DNA from: a virus
Reading direction: 5' to 3' (one strand)
Virus record (IMG/VR): IMGVR_UViG_3300011253_000687
Coordinates: 1 to 42,816 of that record
Length of the DNA: 42,816 nucleotides
How positions within the stretch are numbered: the first letter of the stretch is position 1; each line of letters begins with the position of its first letter. A program made the translations under genes and the position numbers. The notes beneath the pieces are model-generated. The model ran no database searches, was not told the DNA's origin, and saw only the letters and a list, made by a program, of their open reading frames with translations. Shown one piece after another: positions 25,944-42,031 of this stretch.

Positions 25944-26786
25944 ATGGGTGGTATTCCTGGACCGTTTTCTCGAATGCGAGGTGCCCTGCCATCAAGCTTA
26001 ATGGCGCCGCCTCCAGTTCAGGGGGTGTACAACCATCTAGCCCAGCCTGCTTCAATGCTGTCCGCTCCTTCTGCACCACAACCGTTTGCAGCAGAGTATA
26101 CCCAGTCCGCGCTACTGTCCCCAATACAGCCCGCTTCTTCTGCACTACAACCGACTACACCACGGGGTATCGCAGCCCAATCGCAAGCATCGGCGGCCGC
26201 CGATAAAACGTTTGCTGGGTTGTCGCCCCAGGCAATGCAAAACATCGGCATGCACTCTGCAGCAGCTGGCGCCTTAGTTGGAGTTATTGGGGTTATTGGC
26301 CAGTCTATTGCGGGCAAAGAAAACCTGAAGGCTCAAACTAGAACTATTCAGCATGAAGCATTTTTGGCCAATCTAAATGCCCGAGCCAAAGAAAGAGAAG
26401 TGTCGGCCGCTAAAGATCAAGGCAGGCTAAACATTGCTCAAGTAAGCAGCCAAGCGGGGCAGATTAAAGCTAAGCAAGATACAAACGCTGCCGCTCGTGG
26501 CGTTGTTATTCGCGAAGGCAGCGCCGGTGAAGTAACCGCAACAACAGACATTGCCAAAGAAGTAGAAATGTTGGCCATCAATCGATCGTCCATAGAGCGG
26601 TCACTAGCTATTGGGCGTCAAGCTTTAAGTTTGCGCGGAGGCAGTTTGTTAGACCGGATTAGTGCAGGAAACTTGCGCCGAAGTGCTAGCAACATTCAGC
26701 CAGGGATATCTGGAGGAGCTCAATTCATATCGTCTATGGGTCAGTTTGCTGGCCAATACGCCAACTACCGTAAGAGCATAAACTAA
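25944..26786 (+). CDS. Internal virion protein B-like (T7 gp14 position)
   Basis: A 280-residue protein starting one base after the previous stop. Residues 1-90 are Pro/Ala/Ser-rich and disordered. A hydrophobic segment (AAAGALVGVIGVIGQSIAG, about residues 107-125) is followed by a long helix with NARAKEREVSAAKDQGRL and a conserved-looking GSAGEVTATTDIAKEVEMLA. The hydrophobic segment followed by helix is the layout of podovirus gp14-type ejection proteins, which enter the outer membrane at infection. The place between tail tube and larger ejection genes supports this. Confidence 0.78.
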   Translation: MGGIPGPFSRMRGALPSSLMAPPPVQGVYNHLAQPASMLSAPSAPQPFAAEYTQSALLSPIQPASSALQPTTPRGIAAQSQASAAADKTFAGLSPQAMQNIGMHSAAAGALVGVIGVIGQSIAGKENLKAQTRTIQHEAFLANLNARAKEREVSAAKDQGRLNIAQVSSQAGQIKAKQDTNAAARGVVIREGSAGEVTATTDIAKEVEMLAINRSSIERSLAIGRQALSLRGGSLLDRISAGNLRRSASNIQPGISGGAQFISSMGQFAGQYANYRKSIN

Positions 26787-28907
26787 ATGCGCGTTCCTAA
26801 ATTTTCGGCCGGAGGATTTGCAGGTGGCGGCAGTGGCTACACTTCTAAAGCAGTAAAGCAGGGACCAACGACAGGAGTGCAAGAAACCCTCCAAATGGGC
26901 GAAGCGTTGTCCCGATTTGGCAAAGGCGTTTCGGCTTTAAGTCAGCAGTATCAAAACGAGGTCGACGAAGCAGAAATACAGTCATCAGCTAATCTGTTTG
27001 ACGAATACTCTCGCAACGTTCTAGATCCTAAAAACGGTTTCAGAAGTAAGGTCGGTCGAGATGCCAAAGACGGATACGACCAAGAAGTCAAAGACTTAGA
27101 GGCTAAGCGGCAAGAGTTTGGCCAGCGATTAACCAACCAACGACAACGGGACATATACAACAAATACAGCCGCAACCGCGCCGATCGGACGCGTTACTTT
27201 ATTGACAACCATGCGTCTAAAGAGGTGCGCTCATTTAACATTGGTGAAAAGGAAGCAACGTTGTCTGGCAAAGTAGCAGACTACGTTGGCCTGTCGACAA
27301 TGGTTGATCGTGATAGCCAAGCAGAGCAAAGGTCGATGCTTGAAATTAAGCAGGCTGTTAACGACCTAGCAGACATGCAGGCCGTTGGTCCTGAAAAACG
27401 ACAGCAGATGCTAGACACTGCTGTTGGTGGGGCTCGTGAAATGACAGTGTCGAGCCTCATAGATCTAGGCCGATTGGGTGAAGCCGAAAAGGCGCTTGAT
27501 AGCAGTGAGTTCAATCAAATCAAAGAAGCGGGCTACCGCTCGCAACTTAAGGCTGCAATAAAGGAACAAGACCGAGCTGCAAAACTTGAGGCAAGTAATG
27601 AAAGAACTCGTCAACTAAGCAACGATCTGCAAGACATCGTTAACAGCACAGCAGACGATGATGAGACGATCGCCAACGAGATAGAGAACCTCGTAGGCAC
27701 GACAGACAAAGTGCAATACGGCACGCCTGCACAACGCGGTGTGGCAATCCGTCAACGCGTCCTAGAATACGTAGAGCGAGAGCAAAGAGCGGGACGTATG
27801 GACGCTGGCCAAGCCGCAAGCTTTCAGGCTCAGGCCGACAACCAAGTTCGTGTTATCCGCAATCGGTATCTAGAGGAAGGCAACGCAGCTTTTCAATCAG
27901 CCATGCAGCTTCTAAGAGAAGACGACGGCACTGTTTTAGAAATAGAACAGATGCCTAGTGAGCTGCAGTTACGGCTTGAAGAGTTCAGACAAGTAGACAA
28001 CGTGCAAGCGGCCATTAACGAAGTCCGGCAGCCACAGATAGACGCAGCCCAAGAAGCAATAGAAGCAATAGAAGCCGATCAAAAAAACCGACGAGAGCTC
28101 TTTGCGATGACTTTGCTAGAGCAGCTGTCCGTTGGAGGTCAGGTCAAGATAGACAAAACAGTAAGGCAGCAAGCCCAAGAATTAGGCTTAGACCTGAGCG
28201 CGTTTCCTCAAGACGTACCAACCAACTGGAAGACGATGACCCAGGATCAAATCCAAGGAAGCATTCTTGCGTTAGGAGTGACCAAGCCGACTACGTATGG
28301 TAGCTATCTGAGAAAGGGTCTGAGCCTTAAGAAAGGAGCTCTCGACAACAAACGCGCACAAGAGCAACGGGCAGTTGATGCGGTCATAGATCAAATAGCT
28401 ATTGGCGCTAATATTAATCTGAAATTCATGCGATCAACAAAAAGCCGCGACCGGTCAGATATTAATAAGCGGCTAGATCTAATGGAGACCTACAGCAATT
28501 TTAGGGCGCAGCTAGCCGACCCTCAATTCCTTGCACGTTTCAACTTAGGCGAGAACAGCACACCCAATGACTGGAAGTTAGCGGCACCATCTATACTTGA
28601 CATGATCAGCATCGAAACTGACCGTGGCGACGGAATGATCAATCCTGATGACCTGTCGGCAAACAGTAGTTACCGTCAGTTTGCAACGACAGAAGCTACA
28701 GGCAACCTGCCCTTTGTTCCTGTTGGACTGAGCGAGGCTTACAGCAAGTTCCGAATGCAGACACAGAGAATGACTTACCAGGGCGATTTGGAAGACTTGT
28801 CCAATCAGATTAGTGATGGATATGGTGCGACTGAGGATCAAAAGGCATTCGTGCAATACTTACGAGATGTAGGTTATGAGCCAATCAGGGGATCAAAAAA
28901 GAAATAA
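26787..28907 (+). CDS. Internal virion protein C-like (T7 gp15 position)
   Basis: A 706-residue, highly charged, helical protein. It starts MRVPKFSAGGFAGGGSG, then has VSALSQQYQNEVDEAEIQSS and long coiled-coil-like segments with many Gln, Glu, Lys and Arg. No enzyme motif is seen. By size and position it corresponds to gp15-type ejection proteins that build the periplasmic part of the DNA-delivery channel. It begins directly at the previous stop. Near its end, residues 595-602 (DWKLAAPS) are encoded by a 26-base sequence repeated exactly in the next gene. Confidence 0.75.
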   Translation: MRVPKFSAGGFAGGGSGYTSKAVKQGPTTGVQETLQMGEALSRFGKGVSALSQQYQNEVDEAEIQSSANLFDEYSRNVLDPKNGFRSKVGRDAKDGYDQEVKDLEAKRQEFGQRLTNQRQRDIYNKYSRNRADRTRYFIDNHASKEVRSFNIGEKEATLSGKVADYVGLSTMVDRDSQAEQRSMLEIKQAVNDLADMQAVGPEKRQQMLDTAVGGAREMTVSSLIDLGRLGEAEKALDSSEFNQIKEAGYRSQLKAAIKEQDRAAKLEASNERTRQLSNDLQDIVNSTADDDETIANEIENLVGTTDKVQYGTPAQRGVAIRQRVLEYVEREQRAGRMDAGQAASFQAQADNQVRVIRNRYLEEGNAAFQSAMQLLREDDGTVLEIEQMPSELQLRLEEFRQVDNVQAAINEVRQPQIDAAQEAIEAIEADQKNRRELFAMTLLEQLSVGGQVKIDKTVRQQAQELGLDLSAFPQDVPTNWKTMTQDQIQGSILALGVTKPTTYGSYLRKGLSLKKGALDNKRAQEQRAVDAVIDQIAIGANINLKFMRSTKSRDRSDINKRLDLMETYSNFRAQLADPQFLARFNLGENSTPNDWKLAAPSILDMISIETDRGDGMINPDDLSANSSYRQFATTEATGNLPFVPVGLSEAYSKFRMQTQRMTYQGDLEDLSNQISDGYGATEDQKAFVQYLRDVGYEPIRGSKKK
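28569..28594 (+). repeat. 26-base exact repeat, copy 1
   Basis: A 26-base stretch identical to 36750-36775, running from GACTGG to ATCTAT. It lies in the gp15-like gene and encodes DWKLAAPS in frame. Bases on either side differ between copies. A match this long is not expected by chance in a 43-kb sequence. Confidence 0.95.
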
Positions 28908-28910
28908 CAC

Positions 28911-31900
28911 ATGGTCGATTCTTTGATCCCTCCGCTCTTTCCTGACGAACAGCCGCAAGGTCCGCAAGGTCCGCAAGGTCCGCAAGGTCCGAAAAAAAAG
29001 CCTGATGCTGCAGCTGCGCAGATGCCGCCTGCGCAATTGCCAATAGGTAGTTCTGCGCTGGTTCCGTTTGAAGACGAGAGGCCAGTTATCCCGCAACGAT
29101 GGGCGCCGATCACTACGCAAGAAGAACGCGACAAAGCGTTTGTTCAGTCGTTTGCGTTTGCTTCACGTCACGATCCAGCAGTGCGCGCTGAGATCCGCAA
29201 AATTGGCAAGAAGCTAGAAGACTTTGGGGTTACTGAAATTGACATCCGCAATGACATGCCGACCTATCGGCGCATGTATCAAAGCGTGTTGGTCGACCGA
29301 GAGCGCCTGCGCAAGTTTTCGCCAATAACCTACAACATGTTAGCCGATCCTCGGTTTGCTGCAGTTGGCTGGGATCAGGTCGAAGAGCTAGGCGCTATCG
29401 AAGGGCTGATTGGCGATGTCAAAAAAGGGTGGTTGCTTAACCGGTTAGGCAAGGCAGCTTCATCGGCTGTGTATCGTGATTTGTCTCCAGAAGAATGGGA
29501 GCAGATCGCGCGTATGCAGAGTGAAATTGAAGATCTGCCAACGGCTGACATGCTGTTTATGTCGCCTGCCGGCACGCTGTTTGGTCAACTAACCGAAGGC
29601 GGTGTGTCGGCGTTAGGATACGGAGCAGCTGGGGCAGGAATCGGAGCAGGAGTCGGAGCTGTAGCTGGCGGCATTGGTGCTGTTCCGGGCGCTATAGCTG
29701 GGTTTGGCTACGGCGTCAAATCAGGATATCTGGCTAACTCGTTCATGGTCAACAGCGGCCTAGCTGCCGTCGACATGCACGACCGTGGTTACGACATGCG
29801 CCGTATTCGGGCTAGCATGATTGGCGTAGGCATTGGCAATATGGTGCTCGACTATGTTGGTGCAAAAGCAGTTGCAAAGCTGGCCAAGAATACTCGGGTA
29901 GGGGAGTTGATGCGCAAGGCTACAAGTCGCAATCCGTTGGACGCGATGACCATTGGAGACACTGGTAAGCAAATTGTCAAACACGTCACTGGGGCTGTTG
30001 TAACTGAGACGAGCACAGAAACTGGGCAAACCTGGAACGAGATGTTCTGGGAAAATTTAGCACGAGGTGACAAGGAATCTCGTTTTAGCGAAGGCGGCTG
30101 GGCAGCTGTTGGCCAAGAAACTTGGCAGACCATTTCAGAAGTAGCTCAGGGCATGACTGTGATTGGTGGCACTGCCGGTACATACCGAGCTGTGCGAATG
30201 CGACTAAGGGAAAAATCAACGGTCAAGCAAACGCAAGAGCTGCTTACAAAGATTGCAAGTGCTCCTGCAGAGTTGGCCAAAAGAGATCCAGACGAATTTC
30301 AGCGTTGGATGCAACAAGTGGTTAAAGACAGTGGCGCCGAGCTAGTCAAAATACCGCTCTACGCGTTGCGCGAAAAACTGAAGCAGGCAGGCATCTCAGA
30401 GAAAGATGCTAGAGAAATCATTTCGGAGATGGATCAAGCTGAAGAGCTTGAACAAATGCTTGGCGACACGGTCGATGTTGTCATTCCAATAGGCAAAGTA
30501 AAGACCGAACTAGCGACGCGTCCGGCTCTGTTTGAAGCGTTAAAACCGGCGATGCGTTTAGATGACGACCCGCTAAGTTTTGAAGAGTATCAGCAGCGAG
30601 AGGAGGCTGTTAAGAAAGCGCGCGGAGATGTTCGAAAAGCTGCTGGCATGACAGAGCAAGCAGAAGGCTTTGACGAAGAAGTCACGCCGGAAGAACAAGA
30701 GGCAATGGATCAGGCGATTACGCAGCACAACGACAAAGCGGATCGCGTGCGCAATGTTCGTCAAGCTGTGAGCGCTATGATTCGTGCAACTGGTTTGTCA
30801 GGTGCAGAGGCATCTATGGCGATTGAGATGCACATGAGCATGCTCCAGGCCCAGTATGCTATTGAGGTTGATCTAGGTCTTGAGTTTGACGAATACTTTG
30901 ACGCGATTGCTTATCAGGTAGTCAACACTGCATCGGGCCAGACTGCTGCTAGAGCTCTGCCGTCTATTGCTTTGAAACGTGCGGCTGCTGCAGATCCTGA
31001 CGCTGAACCAGCACCTGAGATCCCATCGGTTACCGCTGACACAAAGTTGCCTATCTTCGTCAAAAAAGAAGAGACCGCAGAAGAAGCGCAAAGTCGAATG
31101 TCTTCGGCGCTAGACGCTCGCGAGCGAGGTGTTCCTGGTCCAAAAGAGCCTCGTCGAGCCATGACAATGGGCGACATTGACACCGTCGATATAGCCGACG
31201 CGGTGCTAGCAAATTTAGACAATCAGATTGCAGCTAAAAAACCAAGCAACATAAGCCGGCCGGAATATCTTCGTCGTCGTGCTTCAGTGTTAGCGGCGCG
31301 CGATGCGGTGCGTCAGCGACGAGAAGAGCTAGGGGCACCACTTGTGACCCCTGTAAGAAGTGCCGAAAGCTTGGCAGCTTCTGCATCTGCAGAGACGCGA
31401 GCCGAAGTAGAGCAAGAAACCGATACGCCGTCAGTAGAGCAAGAGACCAGCACAGCTGAACAACCCAAAGCTACTTTAGATCCTGAAATTCAGCAGCGTC
31501 TTGACGCGATGTTGACTAACAACCTTCGCCAGTTTGACAGCGAAGGCCGGCTGCGATCGGTAGCCGCTGGCGTAACAGTCGACGACGCTCTGGCCGGTGC
31601 GTCGCCGGAACAGCGTGTGCTAGCGTTAGAGTATTTGGCAGGACGCGAAGCCGGAGCCGACCCAGAGCAGCTGACGCCAGAAGCCAAGCAAGAGGCGCAG
31701 GAAATTTCTGGCGAGCCGTTCACGCCGCCCGTCATCATGACGGTCGAATCGGACGAAGACGTTAACGTTTACGAGGAGCCAGAAGAAACAGCCGAAGCTG
31801 CGCCGGAAGAAGATGCGCCGCCAACAGAGTTGTTGGGTGACCCGCCGACTCCTGAGCAGCAGCAGACGCTGCAGAGCTTCTTGCCTGAGGAGATCCAGCC

Positions 31901-34900
31901 AAGCGAACCGGACGAGCGCACCTTAATGGCCGAAGAGCCTGTCAGCTTTGACGGGCTAAAGACGGACGAGCCAATCAAGACAGACGCTAACGGGCAATAT
32001 TACGAGCGGCAGTTCATGGGTCGCACGTATCGCGTGCCGGTGCTAGGCAAGAACAAGCGACACGAAAAGCTTAAGCTGGCAGCGCAGGCGTTGGAGAGCG
32101 GTGAGATTACCCGAGACCAATGGAATCAGATAGTCGATCTCTACTTGCCGTTGCGCCGATTTACGGCGGTGCCGCCGCTGCCTTCTGACGGTCGCGTTGT
32201 CGAGGCAATGAATCAGGCGAAGCAAGACGGCACCAATAAAAAGGATCAGATTGGGGGAGACACAGAGCTAGCAGACGGCGAGCGCACGGCTTCTCGCTTG
32301 GACATCCCTGCCTACCGAAACAAGGGCATATATGTTGTTTCAGTTCACAAGTTCAAAGGTGGCGCAAGCAGTGGACCTATTCAGGGCTACAACAAAACAA
32401 TTCGCCTGACAAACGTGGTGATGGGGCAAGGCGTCAAGAAGCACAAAGGCGCCGTCTCTGGCACCAGGGAATGGTTTAAGACTGCAAAGGGTAAGAGCAA
32501 GAACAGCTACGCAGTCCTCAACGGTAACTACGTCAAGGCAACCAACGAAGAGAACCGCGCGGCGGCCGTCGAGGTGTTTGACGACCCGGCCTACCGACAG
32601 GTCGGGATGAACCCAGAGCGACATGGCTATTGGTATGATCGCGAGAGTGGCGAGCCAATTATTGCCGCCGACGAGATTATCCAGATCGGCGAGCTTGTGC
32701 TGGCTAAGAACCCGACCTACGCGCCCAAGTCAGAGTTCCTCTACAGCGAAGAGGTAAACACCGAATCCGACGAATCGTCATACAGGATGCAGCATCGTCC
32801 ACCCGGACCAGACACCCACGGCGCCCCATTACATGACTTGACGGTAAGCTTCCCCGAGGATGTCTACAGCGAGAACGCGCAGCAGTTTTATGGTTCGGCT
32901 GGCGACGTTCTGCAGGGCAAGCTTTGGAAGCTTGTTCAGTCGTTACGCGGCAAGCCCGACGCTCCGGTGACAATATACCGGGCCGTGCCCAAGTCTGCTG
33001 CCGCCACTGAGATTAACCCCGGCGACTGGGTTTCTCTAGATCGAGCCTACGCAGAAATTCACGGCGAAGGGCCAATGAATGGCGATTACGTCATCATCGA
33101 GAAAGAAGTTAGAGCAGACGAAGTGTTCACTTCTGCCGACAGCATTGAGGAAGCAGGCTACTATCCGCAGCAGCAAACCGGAGAAGGCGACCTAGACGCT
33201 GACCAACTTGTGCTGGGGCAAGACGAAGACGAGGCGGCAGATCAAGCAGGGCTTAACCAGCTAAACGTGCAACGCACAGAACGCGCAAAAGGCACTAAAG
33301 CGACTTACGTTGCAGGCGAAAAAGATCGCATTGCAGAAGCAAAGCGCGAGGCAGTTAAAAAATCTAAGTCTGCAACAAGCGTGCTTAGTAATGACAAGAA
33401 AGGGCTAGACAACCAGCTAGCAGAGCTTGCAAAAAAGCTGCCTGAAAAAGGCACTGAGCCAGACAAGGAGCTACAGAAGCAAATCAAGGATCTGAAAAAA
33501 CAGATCAAGGCAGTTGAAGCCGCGTTAAAAAAACAAGAAGACCTTAAACAGGCTGCGCAAGATTTGCCTGAGACAGTGAGGCAGCACAAAATTGCTCACC
33601 CAAGATCAGACGGCTGGGCAATGCTTGTCTTTAAAGACTTCGATTCAAAGACAAACAATCCAACTTACGAAGCTATCCCATACACGTTTCACCGTGACAA
33701 AAACGACGAGCGTCTTGATCTAGGAACGCCAGAATATCTTAAGCAGGTAGACGTTCTTGCAGAACTCATGCGTGTTGAAGTTCTGGCAGTCTTTAACCGT
33801 GCGCAGGCCGGTGATGAAAACGCTAAAGCAATCATCAAAGAGGCGAGCTGGTATAGAGAGATGCGCGCTAGGTTGCGTCGAGAGTTTGGAGGACTTGGCG
33901 ACTTGTTTGCTGACTTGCTAGGTGCAACGTCTCCAAACACTCCTGTTCGCGAAAACTGGAAATACGCTGTTGATGTATTACGTCGTGCCACGAAGGGCGA
34001 CTTCGACAAGCTGATGCCTAAGTGGGAGGCTTGGGATAAGAACTTGCAACAGGAAGAAGCTACGTTTGCAGCGTGGATCGGTTCGCAGTTAGCAACCGGG
34101 ATGACAAAGAAATCGCTGCAAGATAGCGACGAATACAAATCGCGATTCAAGGCTGTAGCGGCGGCGCGCAAGCTGTCCAAAGCCATACTGCCGGTCAAAG
34201 AGACTGGCATGAAGTATGGGTTTAATGGGCATAACATTGTCCGAGGTTTGCTTGGTTTGTGGCGCACTGTCAAAGAAGCCAACCCAGACGTGGGCATCGG
34301 CACAACAGCCCCCAAAGCGGTGAACTTTAGTGGAAACCTAATAGGGTTCCGAGCTCGTGCAACAATTGATGTTTGGGCTGCTCGACTGCTTAACCGTCTT
34401 GCTGGATCTTTGCGCATTCCGTCCAGAGCTGAAAGCGGCGTGCCCGGTTCAATGTTGCCATCGGGAGAAACCAGAGGCGCATTTGGGTTTGGCCAAGATG
34501 TCTTTGCTAAAGCAGCAAAATTGATCAGTAGTGACAGTGCGATGAAAGCTGACCCTGTTTTGGCAGGAGTGCAAGACGACGACTTGCAGGCGATTGTCTG
34601 GTTCCTTGAAAAGGAACATTGGACTGTCAATAGCTGGACCAGTGTGGCCGGCGAAGGCGGTTCGTTTGAATACGAAGCCGATCTTACTGGCACCGCAGAC
34701 CAGCAGCGCGTTAAAGCATTGCGCAAATTAGCGGGCTCTACTGTGTCTGCTACTAATGAAGAAAAAGCAGAAGCTGAGCTAACGATTGCAGAAGCTAAAG
34801 AGGCAACTGCCAAATTGCGGGAAGAGCTAAAAAAGCTAGGAGGTGCCAAAGCTAAAGGGGCGCAAGCCAACAAGCTGCGCAATGAAATCAAAGACATCAA

Positions 34901-37900
34901 CAAGGCCGTAACTAGGGCTCGCGCCATAATCAAAAAGCCGTCGACAGAAGAGTTGCAGGAAACGCGCTTGCAGGCTCGTCGCGAGCTAGACGCAATGGTG
35001 CGCACTACTGACAGGTTTCAATTGGGTTTGTCGATGGCGCTAGAAGATTACGTGCCGACTGATGGTGATCAGCTGCACTTAGCCAACAGCGTGCGCAAGG
35101 CTGCGTTACAAGGCGACACAGATGCCAAAGTGTTAGCGTCTAAAGTTGCAAGCACAGAGGGCCGATACGGAGGCGTGGAGCGCAGCATTGACGCTGAGAT
35201 TGTCACGCGCGAAGGTTACGACTGGTCTAAGCTATGGTCAGAAGTTCTGACGCAGGGTCGAGACAATAACCAAGACAGCGTGTTTATGTCGCGCGTTCTG
35301 CGCACAGACGAAACCTACGACCCTCGGCGGCACCGCCCTGGCGTCGAGGTGTTCTTTAAGGAGATGGGGGACATCGACCAGCTACAAGGCATGCTGGCTG
35401 ACATGGCCAAGGAAGGGGTCGAGTTTTACACGGTAATTGTCGACGGACGCCGTGGCGAAGCTGAGCGCACTGGCGCCATGGGATCGGCAGTTGGCGTTCG
35501 ATTCCAGTTGGTGCCTGAGTTCAACCACCGCTACGGTCTCGACGAATTCAAATGGGACCAAATGACCGACGACGAGGTTGCTGCCGAAATTGACCGGCAA
35601 GCCTTAAAGATGGCCGAAGTCGCCGACCGAGTGTCTCAGTTAAGCGGGGTAACTTTTGCGGACCAGCTGTGGTATGCTACTGAGGTCGCTTTTGCGGGGC
35701 AATACAATGACAGACTACAACAGATCGCAGCTGGACAGCCTCAGGCGCAGCCTGGAGCACCTACAGAGCTTGGGCCGTGGAATGGACAGTCCATTCGCGA
35801 AGGGGTTGCAGGCGCAGATTTTGGAGATGGAGAGGGGACCGGAGAGGCGACAGCAGAGGACGGAACGAGCGAGCGTGTCGATGAAGGGCCGCCCGACGAC
35901 GACATCGAACTTGAGCTCTTCAGCGAAGAAATAGAGTCTGAGCCTCGCGATATTCCTGAAGATGCAATCGTAGCTCTGCATCGATTGAGCTCATACGACG
36001 CCTTGGCTGCCCTAGATCTTGGCGGCCTAGCTGTTCCTAGCATAGGCGTAACTAACGCCGACGATCCTTACACTGGGTTTGGTGAGGTCGTTCTAATTGG
36101 CACTCAAAATCTGGCCGACCCTGAAGCTGGAGTGCCGGTCTTCGGTAATGACGCGTGGACTCCGACCTTTCCTAAGGTTGTGAATGGATTTACAGGACCG
36201 GTTAACTGGACACCGACTGAAGATCTGAACGGTGAGCTAGTCAAACTGGGGATGAATCATCACCACGATCGCGGCGTGAGCCCTTCGATGCGCCAAGCGC
36301 GCAACCTAGTATATCGAAAAGATTGGGATGGATGGAAAGCTGCTGTTGCACGCACTTCCGAAGTTCGGATGAAATACTTGCTTGACCATAATCAAGCAGT
36401 GCCGTTGCGAAGTAGCCCGTTTTATGATGGCAATGTTTTGCGCGATCCACAGTTGGTGCGAGATATTCGCCATGGTGCAGTTATACGCCGTGACGAAGAA
36501 ACAGGTCGGTACATACCCCGCAGTCGACAAGAGATCTCGTCAGAAGTCTTTGCAGCTTTTGATCGCGAGATAGCGCGCTTTACAGAACTACTAAGCCCCA
36601 AAGCACAGCAAGATTTAAAGGATGCAATACAAAACGCTCCACCGCCAGTGCAAGAACCTGCTTGGTTAAGAAGGTTGGGAGCCAACCCACTTACGCCACA
36701 AATTTTGGAGCCGTTAGTAACCAAGGCTCAGACTACCTCGAATGTATCAGACTGGAAGTTAGCGGCACCATCTATGACTACCTTGGGTGTACAGGCGATG
36801 TACAAGTCAGATTTTAGAACATTGGAATCGATGTTTATGCTGACCCAAGATTACATCAAAATGGTCGGTGAAGATGGGCTTGTTTACCAAGGCGTTATTG
36901 ATCACGATTTAGAAGGCCCAGTTCGAAACATACAGAATGAGACGCCGGTTGATGGCAATGCTCTTAATAAGTTAATTGAGACTCAGAGTGACGACTTTTA
37001 TAGCTGGCTAAACAAGACGCTAGATGGTCTAGAGCCACCGCGCTCTAAGCAAGTCATCATGCCTGACGGGACTGCTAAACCATTCAATCTGGCAAACGTC
37101 GTCGAATCTATGACGATGCAGAACATCGAGAATGCTACGCAGTTTGGCGACCACTTCTCGATGGGCAGCGCAAGAGCTCAAAAGACTAAGATGCAATCGC
37201 TCCAAGATGTGCAGAGCGAGAGGTCTTTGTTGGGTGAGCTAAAAAACATCCAGGCTCATAGCGCGATGCAGCCAGATATTACCTCGTGGACGGAGCGCAT
37301 CTACGACGATTGGAAAAGCGCAATGCCTCGTCGTAGGCAGTTAAGCATGGCGCTAACAGATGAAATAAGAAGCGCAATCAACCGCGCTTTGAGCAAGCTT
37401 GTTGCTCTTAAGGAAGAGCCGACGACTGAGCAAGCAAAAGCAAAGATGCTGCCAGACCTTAAGCCTTTGTTTAGGGCGTTAGACGAAAAGCAAGTTCCTG
37501 TCTTTATAGGTGAGCTAGACGCTAATTATGGCGAGGGCTTCGATCCAAACTCTCCGCTGGCTAAAGGCATTGCTGCCGGCACCATTCCCAGTTCGTTAGG
37601 AGCTCAAGAAATCTTCAACCAAAAGAATTGGTGGCAACAGAGCATTGAATTGTCGCGCCGCCTTCGTGATGCCGCCGTGGCTTACATGGAGGCTAAGCCG
37701 CTGCGGTCTGTAAGCTTTGCCGAAATACCTGGGGCAATTGTTCCGAGAGACAGTGACGGCGTAAACGACTTGCTGGCCAGCAGACTGGAAGGGCAAGGAG
37801 TTCAAGTGTTGCGGGTTGAACCAGGAGCGACAGAAGAACTGCTATACGACTTCGCTGTAGAGATTGACAAACAACAACCAGACAATGATCGGGTGTTGTT

Positions 37901-40649
37901 TTCAGAAGAAGAAAACAACGACCCCAAGAAAAAGCGTGTCCGCCGTGGCAAGTATGTGCGGCGCCGTATTGGCACTCGCATCATGCGCACAATCGAGTTG
38001 ATGGAAGACTCTAACGAAAGCACGATCTATCACGAACTTGGGCACGTATTCTTCGACCTACGCCTAGACGCTTTGCGCCGTCAGCTAGATAACCCGAGCG
38101 GCCCGCAATCGACAGTGCTGCAAGAAACCATGCTTGCGTTTTTTGAAGCAATGGAAGTAGGCCCAGAAAACGGCACGCTTGCAGAGCGTCTTGCGGCCTG
38201 GGATGCAATGACTACTCAGGAGCAAGAGCCATACCATGAAGCTGTTGCCCGCAACTTTGAGGTTTACTTAGAAAACGGCCAAGCTCCTACCCGTCGCCAG
38301 AAGCGCATGTTCCAGCGGATTGCTGGCTGGATGCGCAAGGTATACAGCAACAACGTTCTACGGATTAATCAGATCTACCGAGAGTTGTATGGGCGCGATC
38401 TGTTCAAGATTAGTCCTAGAGTTCAAAGAGCGTTCGACAGCATGGTTGCTGCCGAAGAAGACATACAAAACGAGATCGACCGCATTAACACCCCAGACAT
38501 GCAAATGCCGTCAGAGACTCAGGCTTCTGACGATCGAGATGACGACGAAGAAAACGTCACAGTTCCTGCTGACGATCGCGACGATACTGAAGACGAGATG
38601 AGTGAAATGCGGGCAGAGGCTCGCGACGATGCTATTGATGAGCTGACGCGCGAACTGATGAGCGACGCAGAAATCCTTGAAGAGATTACTGGTCGAGCGA
38701 CTAGCGCAGTGCAATCGGAAGAGCGAAGAACTCGCAAATCGCTAAAGGATAAAGCGACAAAAGAGCTGTCAACAAAACGTGTGCATCGATTGCGTGAGTT
38801 CTTGCGCAGTGGCCGTCTGGTTGACAAGGACGGTAACGAAACAGACCAGCTAGATGACAATACCCGTCTAAATACTAAGCAACTGCGGCAGCTTATGCCG
38901 GAGATCAACTTGCGCGATCTTGGCGGCGCGTTGACATCGCCTGACGGCATGGACGTGCAGGCTGTTGCGGAGTTGTTTAACTACGAAAGCGCAACGGAGA
39001 TGGTTGAAGACTTGCGCAATAGCTTGACGTTGAAAGAGGAGATCGACGCTCAAGTTCAACAACAGATGTTGGATAAATATGGCAGCCTAGCAACTCCCGA
39101 AGCTGTGCGCCAATCGGTACAGAAAGCGATCTACAATGAAGCTAAGCAAGCCACCGTGCTTAAAGAGTTGGAGTCAGTAGCCGGCGTAGCTTTACCTCGG
39201 GACGTGACGTTGCAGGCCGTGCGGGATGTTGCTAGGCAGAAGTTATCAAAGACAAAGCTGCGAGACATGCAGCCAACGCAATTCCAAAACGATGCAATGC
39301 GGGCACGCCGTGAAGCGTTCCGGCAAATGCGTTTAGGCAACAGGAATAAAGCTGCGCAGGCGTTCAGAGCTGAGCTGCTATACAACGCAATGGTTCGCGA
39401 GGCTGCATTGCAACGTCGCAACGCAGAACAGCGCATTCGACGTATCGAGGACAACTTTGCGCGTGGCCGCGACGCACAGTTGGCTAAGACCCGAGATATG
39501 CGGTTCATCTATTTTGGCCGTGCGATGCTTAACGCGATCGGCCTTGGCACACAGCCAGAGGTAAGCCATCAGCAAATTGGTCAAGTAGCAGAATACGACC
39601 CTGAGTTTTACGCGGCTAACGCAGGTTTGATTACGGCGCTTGATTCGTTTGCGATCGACAATGTCCTTGACCTAACAGGCGAAAAGTTAACCGAAGCATT
39701 GGACCTAGTTGAAACGGCGTGGGACAGAGCCCGCACAAGTCGAACAATTACCATTGCCGGCAAGCGGATGGATCGCGAAGAGGTAGCCGCACGTTTGGTT
39801 GGCAATCTTAAAAATCTTGGCAAGGTCGACAGCAGCTTGTTTGAGGGCCAGATTGATGAAAAGACCCTAAAGATGTGGCGCTTTTCGCAAATGTGGGCGC
39901 AGATGAAACGCGGCGAGCAAGCAATGATGGTCCTAGATGGGGGCAAAGAAGGTGGTTTGTTTGCTCAAGCATTCTATGAGCCATTGCGCGAGGCTCTGGA
40001 CAAAAGCGACGTAGTCCTAGTCAAGTATTACGAAGACTTGCAAAATTTGATGGAGGAGGTCACGTCGCTCGAACAATCAGAGACGACCCCCAAAGAAATC
40101 GTAGCGCCAGAATTAGGCGGATACGTATTTGGCAAGACCCGAGAAGGTGGCAACGGCGCAGTTCATGAGATCGTTACGATGATTGCCAACCTTGGCAATC
40201 AAAGCAACGCCAACCGAATGATGGCCGGCTACAAGTGGTCTGAGCCTGATAGCAACGGCAATTACAGCATTGAGCCGGTCGTTAACTTTGTTAATAGGCT
40301 GCTGCGAGACAAGATCATTGGTCGTCAGGTGATCGATCTAGCACAAGGAGTCATGGACACGTTTGAGTCTATGAAGCCGGAATTCCAACGGTCATTGTTT
40401 GAGGTTGAAGGTCGCTACGTCAAAGAAGTTGAAGCGCGTCCGTTCACTCTAAACATTGACGGCAAAAACGTTCGGTTCGCTGGCGGCTATGTGCCGATGC
40501 GTTACGACCCGTTGCAAAGCAGAACTAGCAAAAAGCAAGAAGACGAAAAGAGGGCAAAGGCCCAGATGTTAAACTTGTCGAGCTCAGCTACAAAAGAACG
40601 CGTGGCGGGCACGGTCGCAGAGAAAGTAAGCCTGCGCCTCACACGTTAA
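28911..40649 (+). CDS. Giant polyvalent-type internal virion protein (3912 aa)
   Basis: An uninterrupted 11.7-kb frame. Visible order, by residue: 1-31 Pro-rich with four PQG repeats; 232-325 Gly/Ala-rich hydrophobic membrane region; about 1139-1281 a polyvalent-associated domain (GYWYDRESGEPIIAADEIIQ, ending FLYSEE); about 1290-1420 an ADP-ribosyltransferase-like domain (Arg1357, Ser1375, Glu1413); a coiled coil near 1500; about 1560-1900 a DNA-glycosylase-like domain (ATSPNTPVRENW at 1672, TIDVWAARLLNRLAG with Asp1820); about 2336 onward another polyvalent-associated domain (ALHRLSSYDALAALDLGGLA); a zinc peptidase with HELGH (3041-3045). The last 750 residues are helical. Its place after the gp14/gp15-like genes suggests ejection with the DNA. 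No transglycosylase motif of T7 gp16 type was recognised. Confidence 0.82.
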   Translation: MVDSLIPPLFPDEQPQGPQGPQGPQGPKKKPDAAAAQMPPAQLPIGSSALVPFEDERPVIPQRWAPITTQEERDKAFVQSFAFASRHDPAVRAEIRKIGKKLEDFGVTEIDIRNDMPTYRRMYQSVLVDRERLRKFSPITYNMLADPRFAAVGWDQVEELGAIEGLIGDVKKGWLLNRLGKAASSAVYRDLSPEEWEQIARMQSEIEDLPTADMLFMSPAGTLFGQLTEGGVSALGYGAAGAGIGAGVGAVAGGIGAVPGAIAGFGYGVKSGYLANSFMVNSGLAAVDMHDRGYDMRRIRASMIGVGIGNMVLDYVGAKAVAKLAKNTRVGELMRKATSRNPLDAMTIGDTGKQIVKHVTGAVVTETSTETGQTWNEMFWENLARGDKESRFSEGGWAAVGQETWQTISEVAQGMTVIGGTAGTYRAVRMRLREKSTVKQTQELLTKIASAPAELAKRDPDEFQRWMQQVVKDSGAELVKIPLYALREKLKQAGISEKDAREIISEMDQAEELEQMLGDTVDVVIPIGKVKTELATRPALFEALKPAMRLDDDPLSFEEYQQREEAVKKARGDVRKAAGMTEQAEGFDEEVTPEEQEAMDQAITQHNDKADRVRNVRQAVSAMIRATGLSGAEASMAIEMHMSMLQAQYAIEVDLGLEFDEYFDAIAYQVVNTASGQTAARALPSIALKRAAAADPDAEPAPEIPSVTADTKLPIFVKKEETAEEAQSRMSSALDARERGVPGPKEPRRAMTMGDIDTVDIADAVLANLDNQIAAKKPSNISRPEYLRRRASVLAARDAVRQRREELGAPLVTPVRSAESLAASASAETRAEVEQETDTPSVEQETSTAEQPKATLDPEIQQRLDAMLTNNLRQFDSEGRLRSVAAGVTVDDALAGASPEQRVLALEYLAGREAGADPEQLTPEAKQEAQEISGEPFTPPVIMTVESDEDVNVYEEPEETAEAAPEEDAPPTELLGDPPTPEQQQTLQSFLPEEIQPSEPDERTLMAEEPVSFDGLKTDEPIKTDANGQYYERQFMGRTYRVPVLGKNKRHEKLKLAAQALESGEITRDQWNQIVDLYLPLRRFTAVPPLPSDGRVVEAMNQAKQDGTNKKDQIGGDTELADGERTASRLDIPAYRNKGIYVVSVHKFKGGASSGPIQGYNKTIRLTNVVMGQGVKKHKGAVSGTREWFKTAKGKSKNSYAVLNGNYVKATNEENRAAAVEVFDDPAYRQVGMNPERHGYWYDRESGEPIIAADEIIQIGELVLAKNPTYAPKSEFLYSEEVNTESDESSYRMQHRPPGPDTHGAPLHDLTVSFPEDVYSENAQQFYGSAGDVLQGKLWKLVQSLRGKPDAPVTIYRAVPKSAAATEINPGDWVSLDRAYAEIHGEGPMNGDYVIIEKEVRADEVFTSADSIEEAGYYPQQQTGEGDLDADQLVLGQDEDEAADQAGLNQLNVQRTERAKGTKATYVAGEKDRIAEAKREAVKKSKSATSVLSNDKKGLDNQLAELAKKLPEKGTEPDKELQKQIKDLKKQIKAVEAALKKQEDLKQAAQDLPETVRQHKIAHPRSDGWAMLVFKDFDSKTNNPTYEAIPYTFHRDKNDERLDLGTPEYLKQVDVLAELMRVEVLAVFNRAQAGDENAKAIIKEASWYREMRARLRREFGGLGDLFADLLGATSPNTPVRENWKYAVDVLRRATKGDFDKLMPKWEAWDKNLQQEEATFAAWIGSQLATGMTKKSLQDSDEYKSRFKAVAAARKLSKAILPVKETGMKYGFNGHNIVRGLLGLWRTVKEANPDVGIGTTAPKAVNFSGNLIGFRARATIDVWAARLLNRLAGSLRIPSRAESGVPGSMLPSGETRGAFGFGQDVFAKAAKLISSDSAMKADPVLAGVQDDDLQAIVWFLEKEHWTVNSWTSVAGEGGSFEYEADLTGTADQQRVKALRKLAGSTVSATNEEKAEAELTIAEAKEATAKLREELKKLGGAKAKGAQANKLRNEIKDINKAVTRARAIIKKPSTEELQETRLQARRELDAMVRTTDRFQLGLSMALEDYVPTDGDQLHLANSVRKAALQGDTDAKVLASKVASTEGRYGGVERSIDAEIVTREGYDWSKLWSEVLTQGRDNNQDSVFMSRVLRTDETYDPRRHRPGVEVFFKEMGDIDQLQGMLADMAKEGVEFYTVIVDGRRGEAERTGAMGSAVGVRFQLVPEFNHRYGLDEFKWDQMTDDEVAAEIDRQALKMAEVADRVSQLSGVTFADQLWYATEVAFAGQYNDRLQQIAAGQPQAQPGAPTELGPWNGQSIREGVAGADFGDGEGTGEATAEDGTSERVDEGPPDDDIELELFSEEIESEPRDIPEDAIVALHRLSSYDALAALDLGGLAVPSIGVTNADDPYTGFGEVVLIGTQNLADPEAGVPVFGNDAWTPTFPKVVNGFTGPVNWTPTEDLNGELVKLGMNHHHDRGVSPSMRQARNLVYRKDWDGWKAAVARTSEVRMKYLLDHNQAVPLRSSPFYDGNVLRDPQLVRDIRHGAVIRRDEETGRYIPRSRQEISSEVFAAFDREIARFTELLSPKAQQDLKDAIQNAPPPVQEPAWLRRLGANPLTPQILEPLVTKAQTTSNVSDWKLAAPSMTTLGVQAMYKSDFRTLESMFMLTQDYIKMVGEDGLVYQGVIDHDLEGPVRNIQNETPVDGNALNKLIETQSDDFYSWLNKTLDGLEPPRSKQVIMPDGTAKPFNLANVVESMTMQNIENATQFGDHFSMGSARAQKTKMQSLQDVQSERSLLGELKNIQAHSAMQPDITSWTERIYDDWKSAMPRRRQLSMALTDEIRSAINRALSKLVALKEEPTTEQAKAKMLPDLKPLFRALDEKQVPVFIGELDANYGEGFDPNSPLAKGIAAGTIPSSLGAQEIFNQKNWWQQSIELSRRLRDAAVAYMEAKPLRSVSFAEIPGAIVPRDSDGVNDLLASRLEGQGVQVLRVEPGATEELLYDFAVEIDKQQPDNDRVLFSEEENNDPKKKRVRRGKYVRRRIGTRIMRTIELMEDSNESTIYHELGHVFFDLRLDALRRQLDNPSGPQSTVLQETMLAFFEAMEVGPENGTLAERLAAWDAMTTQEQEPYHEAVARNFEVYLENGQAPTRRQKRMFQRIAGWMRKVYSNNVLRINQIYRELYGRDLFKISPRVQRAFDSMVAAEEDIQNEIDRINTPDMQMPSETQASDDRDDDEENVTVPADDRDDTEDEMSEMRAEARDDAIDELTRELMSDAEILEEITGRATSAVQSEERRTRKSLKDKATKELSTKRVHRLREFLRSGRLVDKDGNETDQLDDNTRLNTKQLRQLMPEINLRDLGGALTSPDGMDVQAVAELFNYESATEMVEDLRNSLTLKEEIDAQVQQQMLDKYGSLATPEAVRQSVQKAIYNEAKQATVLKELESVAGVALPRDVTLQAVRDVARQKLSKTKLRDMQPTQFQNDAMRARREAFRQMRLGNRNKAAQAFRAELLYNAMVREAALQRRNAEQRIRRIEDNFARGRDAQLAKTRDMRFIYFGRAMLNAIGLGTQPEVSHQQIGQVAEYDPEFYAANAGLITALDSFAIDNVLDLTGEKLTEALDLVETAWDRARTSRTITIAGKRMDREEVAARLVGNLKNLGKVDSSLFEGQIDEKTLKMWRFSQMWAQMKRGEQAMMVLDGGKEGGLFAQAFYEPLREALDKSDVVLVKYYEDLQNLMEEVTSLEQSETTPKEIVAPELGGYVFGKTREGGNGAVHEIVTMIANLGNQSNANRMMAGYKWSEPDSNGNYSIEPVVNFVNRLLRDKIIGRQVIDLAQGVMDTFESMKPEFQRSLFEVEGRYVKEVEARPFTLNIDGKNVRFAGGYVPMRYDPLQSRTSKKQEDEKRAKAQMLNLSSSATKERVAGTVAEKVSLRLTR
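28953..28988 (+). repeat. Four tandem 9-base repeats (collagen-like PQG)
   Basis: CCGCAAGGT four times without mismatch, encoding Pro-Gln-Gly four times at residues 15-26 of the giant protein. The repeat is followed by CCG and eight A. The perfect DNA identity suggests recent expansion by slippage. Confidence 0.95.
28994..29040 (+). promoter_or_regulatory. Candidate -1 frameshift site (A AAA AAG plus hairpin)
   Basis: In the giant gene, codons AAA AAA AAG form the heptamer A AAA AAG at 28994-29000 in the phase used by dnaX slippery sites. After 9 bases a hairpin is possible: 29010-29021 with 29029-29040, containing a perfect 7-base stem (TGCGCAG/CTGCGCA), one mismatch and one G-U. A -1 shift would reach TGA at 29003 and give a 31-residue product. 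The elements are visible; function is inferred. Confidence 0.35.
36750..36775 (+). repeat. 26-base exact repeat, copy 2
   Basis: Identical to 28569-28594. Here it lies in the giant gene and again encodes DWKLAAPS (from residue 2614) in the same phase. Surrounding protein sequences in the two genes are otherwise not obviously similar. Confidence 0.95.
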
Positions 40650-42031
40650 TGGGAACGTTCCAAGAACACGTTCGCTACATTCACGTCGTGCCGGCGGTCA
40701 AAAAGGTCCGCGACTTGTTAGACGCGACAGACGTTTCTGATCAGTTTGACGAGACAAACAGACTGTCGCTTGGCCAAGCACTAAGACGGATGGACCCCGG
40801 TATATACGGTGGAAGTCCCAACAGCGTGCTCGACCTTTTAATGTATCGAGCTTCTAGCGGTAGCTTGCACCCCAACACAGCAATGCCGGGACCGTTTAGC
40901 AGAGCCATTGGCGCTTTGCGCAAACGTATGGGCAGCATCATTTTTACGTTCCACATTAGGAACGCAGCAGAAAACAACTTCGCGTTGATTGGTGCCCTGA
41001 CTACCCGCTTTGGAGTTAAGGCGCGGTATGTTGCCGCAGCGTGGAAAGCGCGCTACGCCGACTTGGAATACATCATGTCTAATAGTAATATGATGCATGG
41101 TCGGTTGCAAAAAGGTGCGCAGCAGATTGTGGCTGAAGACTTCACGCCTGCAATGCTGCGCGAAAAAATGAGCAACCGTGTAGGTTACTGGGCACCACGT
41201 TTTACGCAGCAAATCCTAGAAGGGATGCTGTGGAAAGCGGCGCACGATCAATGGCTAGCTGAAAGCCGGCCAGACGGCATTAGCGATAAAGAGGCTATTC
41301 GTCAGGCATCAACCTTTGCCGATAGAAAGGTGCGCTTGAATTTAGGTAGCGGTGACATTTTGGACGCTCCTGGTTACGAGGGCGCCTACGGTGAGCTAGG
41401 CCGCATGCTCACGCAATTTACTGGTTGGTTCGCCTACAAAAACAACATGGCCCAAGTTTCCTGGGCTCAGTTCCAGCAAGAAGCCGGCCTAGCTGGAGCT
41501 GGTCGATTTGCTTGGAACATGTTTAGCTTGTTCTACCTAGAGTTCATGTTTGGTGCAGCGCTGGCAGAGTGGCTGCGAGGCGAAGCTGAGGACGACGATG
41601 AAGAGTCGTGGGATGCTTTCCTGTTAGAATCAATGGTGCTGCAGCCTGCTCGAATGGCTATGGCTGGCGCCATTCCAATTGCTGGCGAGATGGTGGGCGG
41701 TGGATTTGAAAAGCTGCTAGGCTTGGCCATGCGTCAGATTGACGAAGATACAACCTTCGACGGAGGTCGAGGCGTAGAGTCTCCGCGCACTGGCGCGTTT
41801 GATTGGCTAGCGCGCAATGCCAACACAGCGCTTAAATTACTAGAAGGCGAGTTTAAGGGTGCCGAACTGCGAGCAGCAGTAGAGCTCACAGCTACGCTTC
41901 TTGGCCGAGACGCGGCTATGCTGCCGGCGTTTGCTGGCCGCCAAATTCAATATGGCACAGATCTGCTGACCGGAACGGCAGATCCTCAAGATGCCGAGGA
42001 CGTATTCCGGGGTTTGATTCAAGGCAAATAA
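40649..42031 (+). CDS. C-terminal ejection-protein segment as a separate gene (460 aa)
   Basis: ATG 40649 overlaps the stop of the giant gene (TAATG), so it is translated by coupling. The product opens MGTFQEHVRYIHVVPAVKKV, then has IIFTFHIRNAAENNFALIGA and TFADRKVRLNLGSGDILDAP. A likely membrane segment follows (WNMFSLFYLEFMFGAALAEW), then VLQPARMAMAGAIPIAGEMV. In related podoviruses I recall segments of this kind forming the C-terminal end of the giant protein itself; here they are in another frame. It probably acts with the giant protein in the ejected complex. Confidence 0.7.
   Translation: MGTFQEHVRYIHVVPAVKKVRDLLDATDVSDQFDETNRLSLGQALRRMDPGIYGGSPNSVLDLLMYRASSGSLHPNTAMPGPFSRAIGALRKRMGSIIFTFHIRNAAENNFALIGALTTRFGVKARYVAAAWKARYADLEYIMSNSNMMHGRLQKGAQQIVAEDFTPAMLREKMSNRVGYWAPRFTQQILEGMLWKAAHDQWLAESRPDGISDKEAIRQASTFADRKVRLNLGSGDILDAPGYEGAYGELGRMLTQFTGWFAYKNNMAQVSWAQFQQEAGLAGAGRFAWNMFSLFYLEFMFGAALAEWLRGEAEDDDEESWDAFLLESMVLQPARMAMAGAIPIAGEMVGGGFEKLLGLAMRQIDEDTTFDGGRGVESPRTGAFDWLARNANTALKLLEGEFKGAELRAAVELTATLLGRDAAMLPAFAGRQIQYGTDLLTGTADPQDAEDVFRGLIQGK

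Follow-up and report, generated by a model that had tools for sequence, protein, structure and literature searches.

A DUF7178-related domain with a predicted HhH-GPD glycosylase fold in a giant, putatively ejected phage protein

In the Ogg2 glycosylase MjaOgg (3knt), the catalytic pair consists of Lys129 and Asp147, the base is sandwiched between His133 and Trp198, and the C-terminal Lys207 distinguishes 8-oxoG from G, according to excerpts of PMC5069365 and PMC3397491. The Schiff-base nucleophile of endonuclease III (EndoIII) is K120, as stated in an excerpt of PMC11754123. Among phages, excerpts of a Roseobacter-phage paper describe a separate pyrimidine-dimer glycosylase (PMC11288001), and those of a jumbo-phage paper describe T4 endonuclease V type enzymes (PMC7824862). 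Phage N4 sends in an enzyme, vRNAP, together with its DNA, and N4 gp50–52 are ejection proteins, as given in excerpts of PMC12633501. The word "glycosylase" is absent from the main texts of the polyvalent-protein paper (Iyer et al. 2017, PMC5512222) and of an ejection-protein review (PMC8954989). No mention of the Pfam family DUF7178 (PF23802) was found in the literature searched; subscription papers lay mostly outside that search, and a prior description is possible.

We analyzed the 42,816-base virus record IMGVR_UViG_3300011253_000687, hereafter called the window, which encodes a 3912-aa polyvalent-type protein that this short-tailed phage would probably inject along with its DNA. Residues about 1600–1925 of this protein probably constitute an HhH-GPD-superfamily DNA glycosylase domain related to DUF7178, which would perform bifunctional-type base excision after delivery with the genome. 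The initial annotation had placed a possible glycosylase domain at 33471–34611, corresponding to residues about 1521–1900, with Asp1820 as the catalytic residue. Its motif positions are right, since ATSPNTPV starts at residue 1672 and TIDVWAAR at residue 1818 of ORF 28911–40649, thereby placing the Asp at 1820; the motif starts are 146 residues apart, close to the proposed separation of about 145. A second residue of catalytic type, Lys1802, was absent from that annotation. The giant protein contains one loose Asp motif, which turns up in 5 of 2000 shuffles of its residues, and one match to a Lys-Asn-Asp-Arg pattern derived from E. coli Nth, which turns up in none of 2000 shuffles; both patterns were composed after the sequence was seen, so these counts are descriptive only and conservation provides the real test. 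A 438-aa antisense ORF at 33689–35005 was rejected as a gene and considered a mechanical ORF only. In the left arm, a PAPS-reductase-like ORF at 741–1565 contains 10 Cys in 274 aa and could be involved in sulphur or DNA modification chemistry.

Features of the giant protein and its surroundings in the window
Feature	Coordinates	Strand	Details
Four consecutive ORFs (280, 706, 3912 and 460 aa), 0 Cys in 5358 aa; proposed ejection-protein block	25944..42031	+	
Giant polyvalent-type protein, 3912 aa, 0 Cys, internal-virion (ejection protein) position	28911..40649	+	
phrog_2579 match ("ParB C-terminal domain"), residues 1286–1425	32766..33185	+	
Conserved glycosylase-like domain, residues 1585–1960 (extent aligned and modelled)	33663..34790	+	
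First to last residue aligned to MjaOgg 3knt, residues 1618–1918	33762..34664	+	179 aligned, rmsd 3.8, Z 9.1
N-terminal motifs common with DUF7178: WY (1647–1648) to ATSPNTPVREN (1672–1682)	33849..33956	+	
Lys1802, place of the Schiff-base lysine (K120 EndoIII, K129 MjaOgg)	34314..34316	+	
Asp1820, place of the catalytic aspartate (D138 EndoIII, D147 MjaOgg)	34368..34370	+	
Gln1893 to Trp1897 (QAIVW)	34587..34601	+	Trp aligned via DUF7178 to MjaOgg Trp198
Partner domain, residues 2010–2305	34938..35825	+	Accompanies the glycosylase domain
PBECR5 nuclease-like domain (Pfam PF18814), residues 2352–2425	35964..36185	+	E 9.4e-17
HELGH, residues 3041–3045, zincin-type metallopeptidase motif	38031..38045	+	

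A scan of IMG/VR with residues 1631–1980 returned 384 pattern matches, and at 381 of them a relative is encoded; an earlier viral scan with six rigid patterns had confirmed none, and the shifted query yielded the 381. The best 80 of these 381 relatives show 41–66% identity. In 44 of these 80 loci the domain-bearing ORF lies entirely within the locus, with lengths of 892 to 3898 aa (median 1832). A search of genome_contigs gave seven relatives, every one on a MAG contig. Alignment A1 comprises the window sequence and 50 relatives, with three short fragments and near-duplicates of more than 95% identity left out. No match was obtained by megablast of the window DNA against phages or by tblastn of residues 1521–1980 against phages and plasmids at E ≤1, and a viral-contig scan with E. 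coli Nth detected no relative. NCBIfam and PADLOC contained no family for the window domain, two stand-alone relatives or the partner domain.

The link to DUF7178 was established through intermediates. The window domain itself scores 22.2 bits against this family, under the curated cut-off of 27, and all 51 members of A1 match it at E up to 1. A bridging giant ORF of 2020 aa (L128) scores 35.3 bits, above the cut-off, and aligns with the window domain by BLASTP at E 2e-34 (33% over 280 columns); in the search that included this ORF, three of seven genomes have a match over the cut-off. Another relative, a 999-aa domain protein (L070), shows weak matches, at E 0.3–0.4, to mycobacteriophage proteins, two records of which are annotated "glycosylase". 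The matched protein is DroogsArmy gp83, which scores 246 bits against DUF7178. Matches to gp83 occur in 188 of 50,697 INPHARED phage records, and their annotations among the 60 rows listed are "hypothetical protein", "glycosylase", "DNA glycosylase", "N-glycosylase" and "N-glycosylase/DNA lyase", together with single odd ones such as "glycosyltransferase" and "portal protein". In IMG/VR, DUF7178 relatives occur in at least 583 stretches. Fifteen stand-alone proteins from the INPHARED gp83 matches form alignment A2, and 35 stand-alone IMG/VR proteins form A5, for which 48 of 85 loci were taken and sequences more than 90% identical were removed. Comparison of A1 with A2 by hhalign gave a probability of 95, with E 3.6e-8 for one pair.

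Several individual DUF7178-type genes are recorded here as separate observations. A 589-aa ORF in a MAG genome (L129, 724–2490) is of the DUF7178 type at 31.2 bits, above the cut-off, and carries STIDTH, which is nearer to the classic VDTH of HhH-GPD enzymes. The relative gp111 of Tunturiibacter phage Tunturi_3 (L092, 2950–3546) is annotated "portal protein", a probable misannotation. In Rhodobacteraceae phage LS06-2018-MD07 (L213), a very long "methyltransferase" CDS across the record start has a partial DUF7178-like match (E 2e-4). Thymidylate synthase genes lie near stand-alone DUF7178 genes in Celeribacter phage P12053L (L094, 745–1335) and Roseobacter phage SIO1 (L096, 2989–3579).

Conservation centers on the putative active site. 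Lys1802 and Asp1820 are each present in all 70 distinct domain sequences (81 including the window, minus 11 exact duplicates), a count that is biased for the Asp, because one seed pattern of the IMG/VR scan, ATIDVWAA, includes this residue. The 15 proteins of A2 were gathered by tblastn without an Asp-containing seed. Pooling A1, A2 and A5 gave an alignment of 101 rows (51, 15 and 35, with some near-duplicates shared between A2 and A5), in which W1647, Y1648, S1674, N1682, K1802, F1806, D1820, Q1893 and W1897 are identical throughout. Conservation of Asp1820 in homologues had been set beforehand as a check able to refute the glycosylase reading, and the residue proved invariant in both sets. 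Lys and Asp are 18 residues apart in all 51 rows of A1 and 17–21 residues apart in the remaining pooled rows.

The shared motifs WY, S(P)..N, K...F, (T)(I/V)D and QA..W follow the same order in the window domain and in DUF7178 proteins such as DroogsArmy gp83 and SIO1 gp9, with Lys and Asp invariant in both. In contrast to the window domain, which is embedded in a 3912-aa protein, the DUF7178 members are separate proteins, mostly of about 190–230 aa, and the stretch from N1682 to K1802 is about 79 residues longer in the window domain than in gp83. Sequence searches with the window domain did not retrieve glycosylases: PF00730 is not listed at E up to 10, the 16 chains matched by A1 among PDB sequences include no glycosylase, and hhalign of A1 against A3, an EndoIII/MutY alignment of 14 sequences, gave 0.2%. 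The Ogg-HhH family (PF22175) was found in none of the seven genomes behind loci L103–L109. Since the window sequence falls below the DUF7178 cut-off and no glycosylase is found by sequence, the window domain represents a divergent clade.

The AlphaFold2 model of the window domain, calculated from A1, has a pLDDT of 84.9 and a pTM of 0.81. In a VIA-align 2 comparison with 383 PDB chains, all four chains with Z ≥5 are DNA glycosylases: MjaOgg is the highest (see the table), followed by Pa-AGOG (6.0), D. radiodurans EndoIII-3 (5.9) and its double mutant (5.8), while the next chain is unrelated (Z 4.7); VIA-align re-ranks Foldseek's own matches and covers the families present there. Foldseek alone, run with the window model against the PDB, listed 44 rows with a best E of 1.2 and no glycosylase, all being chance matches. 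Against BFVD it gave four matches at E ≤0.001, all from uncultured phages, three named "uncharacterized protein" and one "inorganic pyrophosphatase domain-containing protein". According to the tool's own warning, Z values of 9–12 can occur by chance for helical models, and an independent structural test was therefore needed, for which the stand-alone relatives were used.

The model of a stand-alone relative from A5 has a pLDDT of 92.9. The helix-hairpin-helix is clear in this model, as a helix (107–114), a short turn and a second helix (117–127) whose first turn carries the Lys (118). Another helix begins directly after the Asp (135). The first 41 Foldseek rows for this model are glycosylases, with a probability of 1.00 for MjaOgg and no E below 0.001. 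VIA-align over 960 chains gave 73 with Z ≥8, and the 50 matches listed are all HhH-GPD-superfamily glycosylases or homologues, among them MjaOgg (Z 12.0), SsOgg (11.8), Tm1821 (11.5) and EndoIII 2abk (9.3). The A2 profile matched six chains among PDB sequences at E up to 10, four of which are 8-oxoguanine glycosylase/lyases of the Ogg2 type (E 0.089 to 0.51); in this alignment, the invariant Asp falls on the catalytic Asp and the invariant Trp on MjaOgg Trp198. A5 matched nine chains, two of them MjaOgg entries at E 1.3. These E-values are insignificant singly, and their weight lies in the agreement with the structural result. Against A3, hhalign gave 6.9% for A2, with Lys and Asp in register, and 1.5% for A5. 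The predicted fold is HhH-GPD-like in both the window (residues 1585–1960) and stand-alone models, so that the other check set beforehand, a fold unlike HhH-GPD, likewise failed to refute the glycosylase reading. Endonuclease III had been suggested for comparison; the nearest solved structures are the archaeal and bacterial 8-oxoguanine glycosylases (Ogg2 and then AGOG), more so than EndoIII. An HhH-GPD-type fold with a conserved active site is very probable for the window domain.

The HhH region of the window model is less complete, with only the second helix predicted (H217–223) and a pLDDT of 57 just beyond. This apparently reduced hairpin would be consistent with a non-catalytic module, in which the glycosylase fold serves to hold the incoming DNA within the ejection channel. 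The structural matches of the stand-alone model also include Mag2, a homologue of glycosylases that is said to sculpt abasic-site DNA and is not known to have glycosylase activity. However, binding alone would not require the active-site Lys and Asp, which never vary in the pooled alignment, and we regard a purely DNA-holding role as unlikely. Catalytic base excision is the likely function of the window domain.

MjaOgg is the top structural match of both the window and stand-alone models. The spacing of K1802 and D1820 in the window equals that of Lys129 and Asp147, and Trp1897 occupies the place of the base-stacking Trp198. The window domain differs from Ogg2 in being internal to a larger protein and so having no C-terminal lysine, in having Asn1805 in place of His133, with an alignment uncertainty of one residue (position 1805 is N in 45 and T in 6 of the 51 rows of A1), and in showing no significant sequence match to Ogg2. 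With Asn at the His133 place and no C-terminal Lys there, assignment of the window domain to Ogg2 was rejected; 8-oxoguanine specificity was rejected for lack of supporting evidence, and we propose no particular substrate. The resemblance to EndoIII (Nth) comprises the same Lys/Asp spacing of 18 and the score of 2abk with the stand-alone model. The catalytic aspartate of EndoIII, which we take to be D138, corresponds to an Asp at position 138 in the Nth sequence read. In contrast to EndoIII, residues 1585–1960 and the whole window protein contain no Cys, which makes an EndoIII-type 4Fe-4S cluster impossible, and only 7 of 31 positions across the motif are identical. Assignment to EndoIII was accordingly rejected.

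Phage thymine-hypermodification enzymes have been linked to the glycosylase fold. The domain might therefore be a base-modifying enzyme on a glycosylase-like scaffold, such as a transferase of thymine hypermodification, and not remove bases at all. However, the domain matched no hypermodification family, and five of the nine left-arm ORFs scanned matched a family (PAPS_reduct, just below its cut-off, ERF, SSB, Bac_DnaA_C and Sf6_terminase), none of them a known hypermodification enzyme. Furthermore, the Lys-Asp spacing is common to Ogg2 and EndoIII. A base-modifying function thus appears very improbable. Taken as a whole, the glycosylase reading of the initial annotation is partly supported, through the predicted fold, Asp1820 and the additional invariant Lys1802.

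The giant gene lies downstream of PHROGs matches to a terminase, a head-tail adaptor, a major head protein, two tail proteins and an endolysin-like ORF. In L070, the domain protein is preceded by the major head protein, two tail proteins and, immediately upstream, a 584-aa ORF, and it is followed by an internal virion protein and then tail fibres. Ten other window ORFs, hand-picked as likely genes, contain 63 Cys in 5386 aa, as compared with the cysteine-free block listed in the table. The domain-bearing ORFs of the best 80 relatives have 37 Cys in 161,201 aa, with 53 of the 80 devoid of any. T7 gp15 and gp16 and N4 gp50, gp51 and gp52 are likewise free of Cys. T7 gp14 has one Cys and the N4 major head protein (401 aa) has none, so that the absence of cysteine is not an exclusive sign of ejection; it might offer an easy marker of ejection proteins in podoviruses. 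The window protein resembles N4 vRNAP and T7 gp15/gp16 in being giant or large, cysteine-free and similarly placed in the gene order, but no sequence relation to them is shown, and what those proteins deliver is a polymerase, or channel and lysozyme activities, instead of a glycosylase.

The term "ejected" in the initial annotation is supported by gene position and the absence of cysteine, from which delivery is inferred. Stand-alone DUF7178 proteins lie outside the virion genes in the annotated phages examined, in keeping with a giant protein that is not ejected and a domain that acts inside the cell at the replication or packaging stage. In contrast, the giant gene follows the tail proteins, its counterpart in L070 adjoins an internal virion protein, and the ORF block is cysteine-free, which makes an intracellular role improbable. 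By position and composition, delivery of the giant protein with the genome is likely.

The partner domain was matched in 77 of the 87 loci searched (80 viral and 7 MAG), and it adjoins the glycosylase domain among the loci listed. Pfam gave no family for its first member and scattered weak matches among 33 members, and the PDB search produced four chance matches and no known fold. In combining PBECR5, a ParB-type match and a HEXXH motif, the giant protein resembles polyvalent proteins, as far as excerpts of PMC5512222 describe them; the absence of "glycosylase" from the main text of that paper marks a difference. According to the same excerpts, domains such as PBECR5 and HEXXH are tied to early host conflict. 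Their presence in the window protein and the conserved second domain that accompanies the glycosylase domain would suit an anti-host effector, which generates abasic sites or nicks in the host chromosome for take-over or nucleotide supply. The stand-alone relatives, by contrast, are found among small non-structural genes, near thymidylate synthase in two phages, and offer no pointer to host killing. We consider such an effector possible, yet rather doubtful.

For the preferred reading, base excision by a delivered enzyme, the following sequence of events can be envisaged. The giant protein would be stored in the virion and would enter the host with the DNA, like T7 gp15/16 and N4 vRNAP. The domain would flip a base into its pocket, where Trp1897 would stack on it; Asp1820 would then activate and Lys1802 form a Schiff base, giving glycosylase and AP-lyase activities. 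It would most likely act in the first minutes, before phage gene expression, at the site of DNA entry. The target might be damaged or defence-modified bases of the entering DNA, which is a guess, and host DNA is equally possible. We tentatively raise the idea, with considerable reservation, that the injected base-excision enzyme and its partner domain attack the host chromosome or defence-placed bases on the incoming DNA before phage genes are read, which would constitute a new class of counter-defence or take-over effector.

These findings propose a testable function for DUF7178, a Pfam family of unknown function, and place DNA base excision among the functions that may enter the host alongside phage genomes. 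If this is true, repair of DNA, removal of defence marks from it, or an attack on it would take place at the very start of infection.
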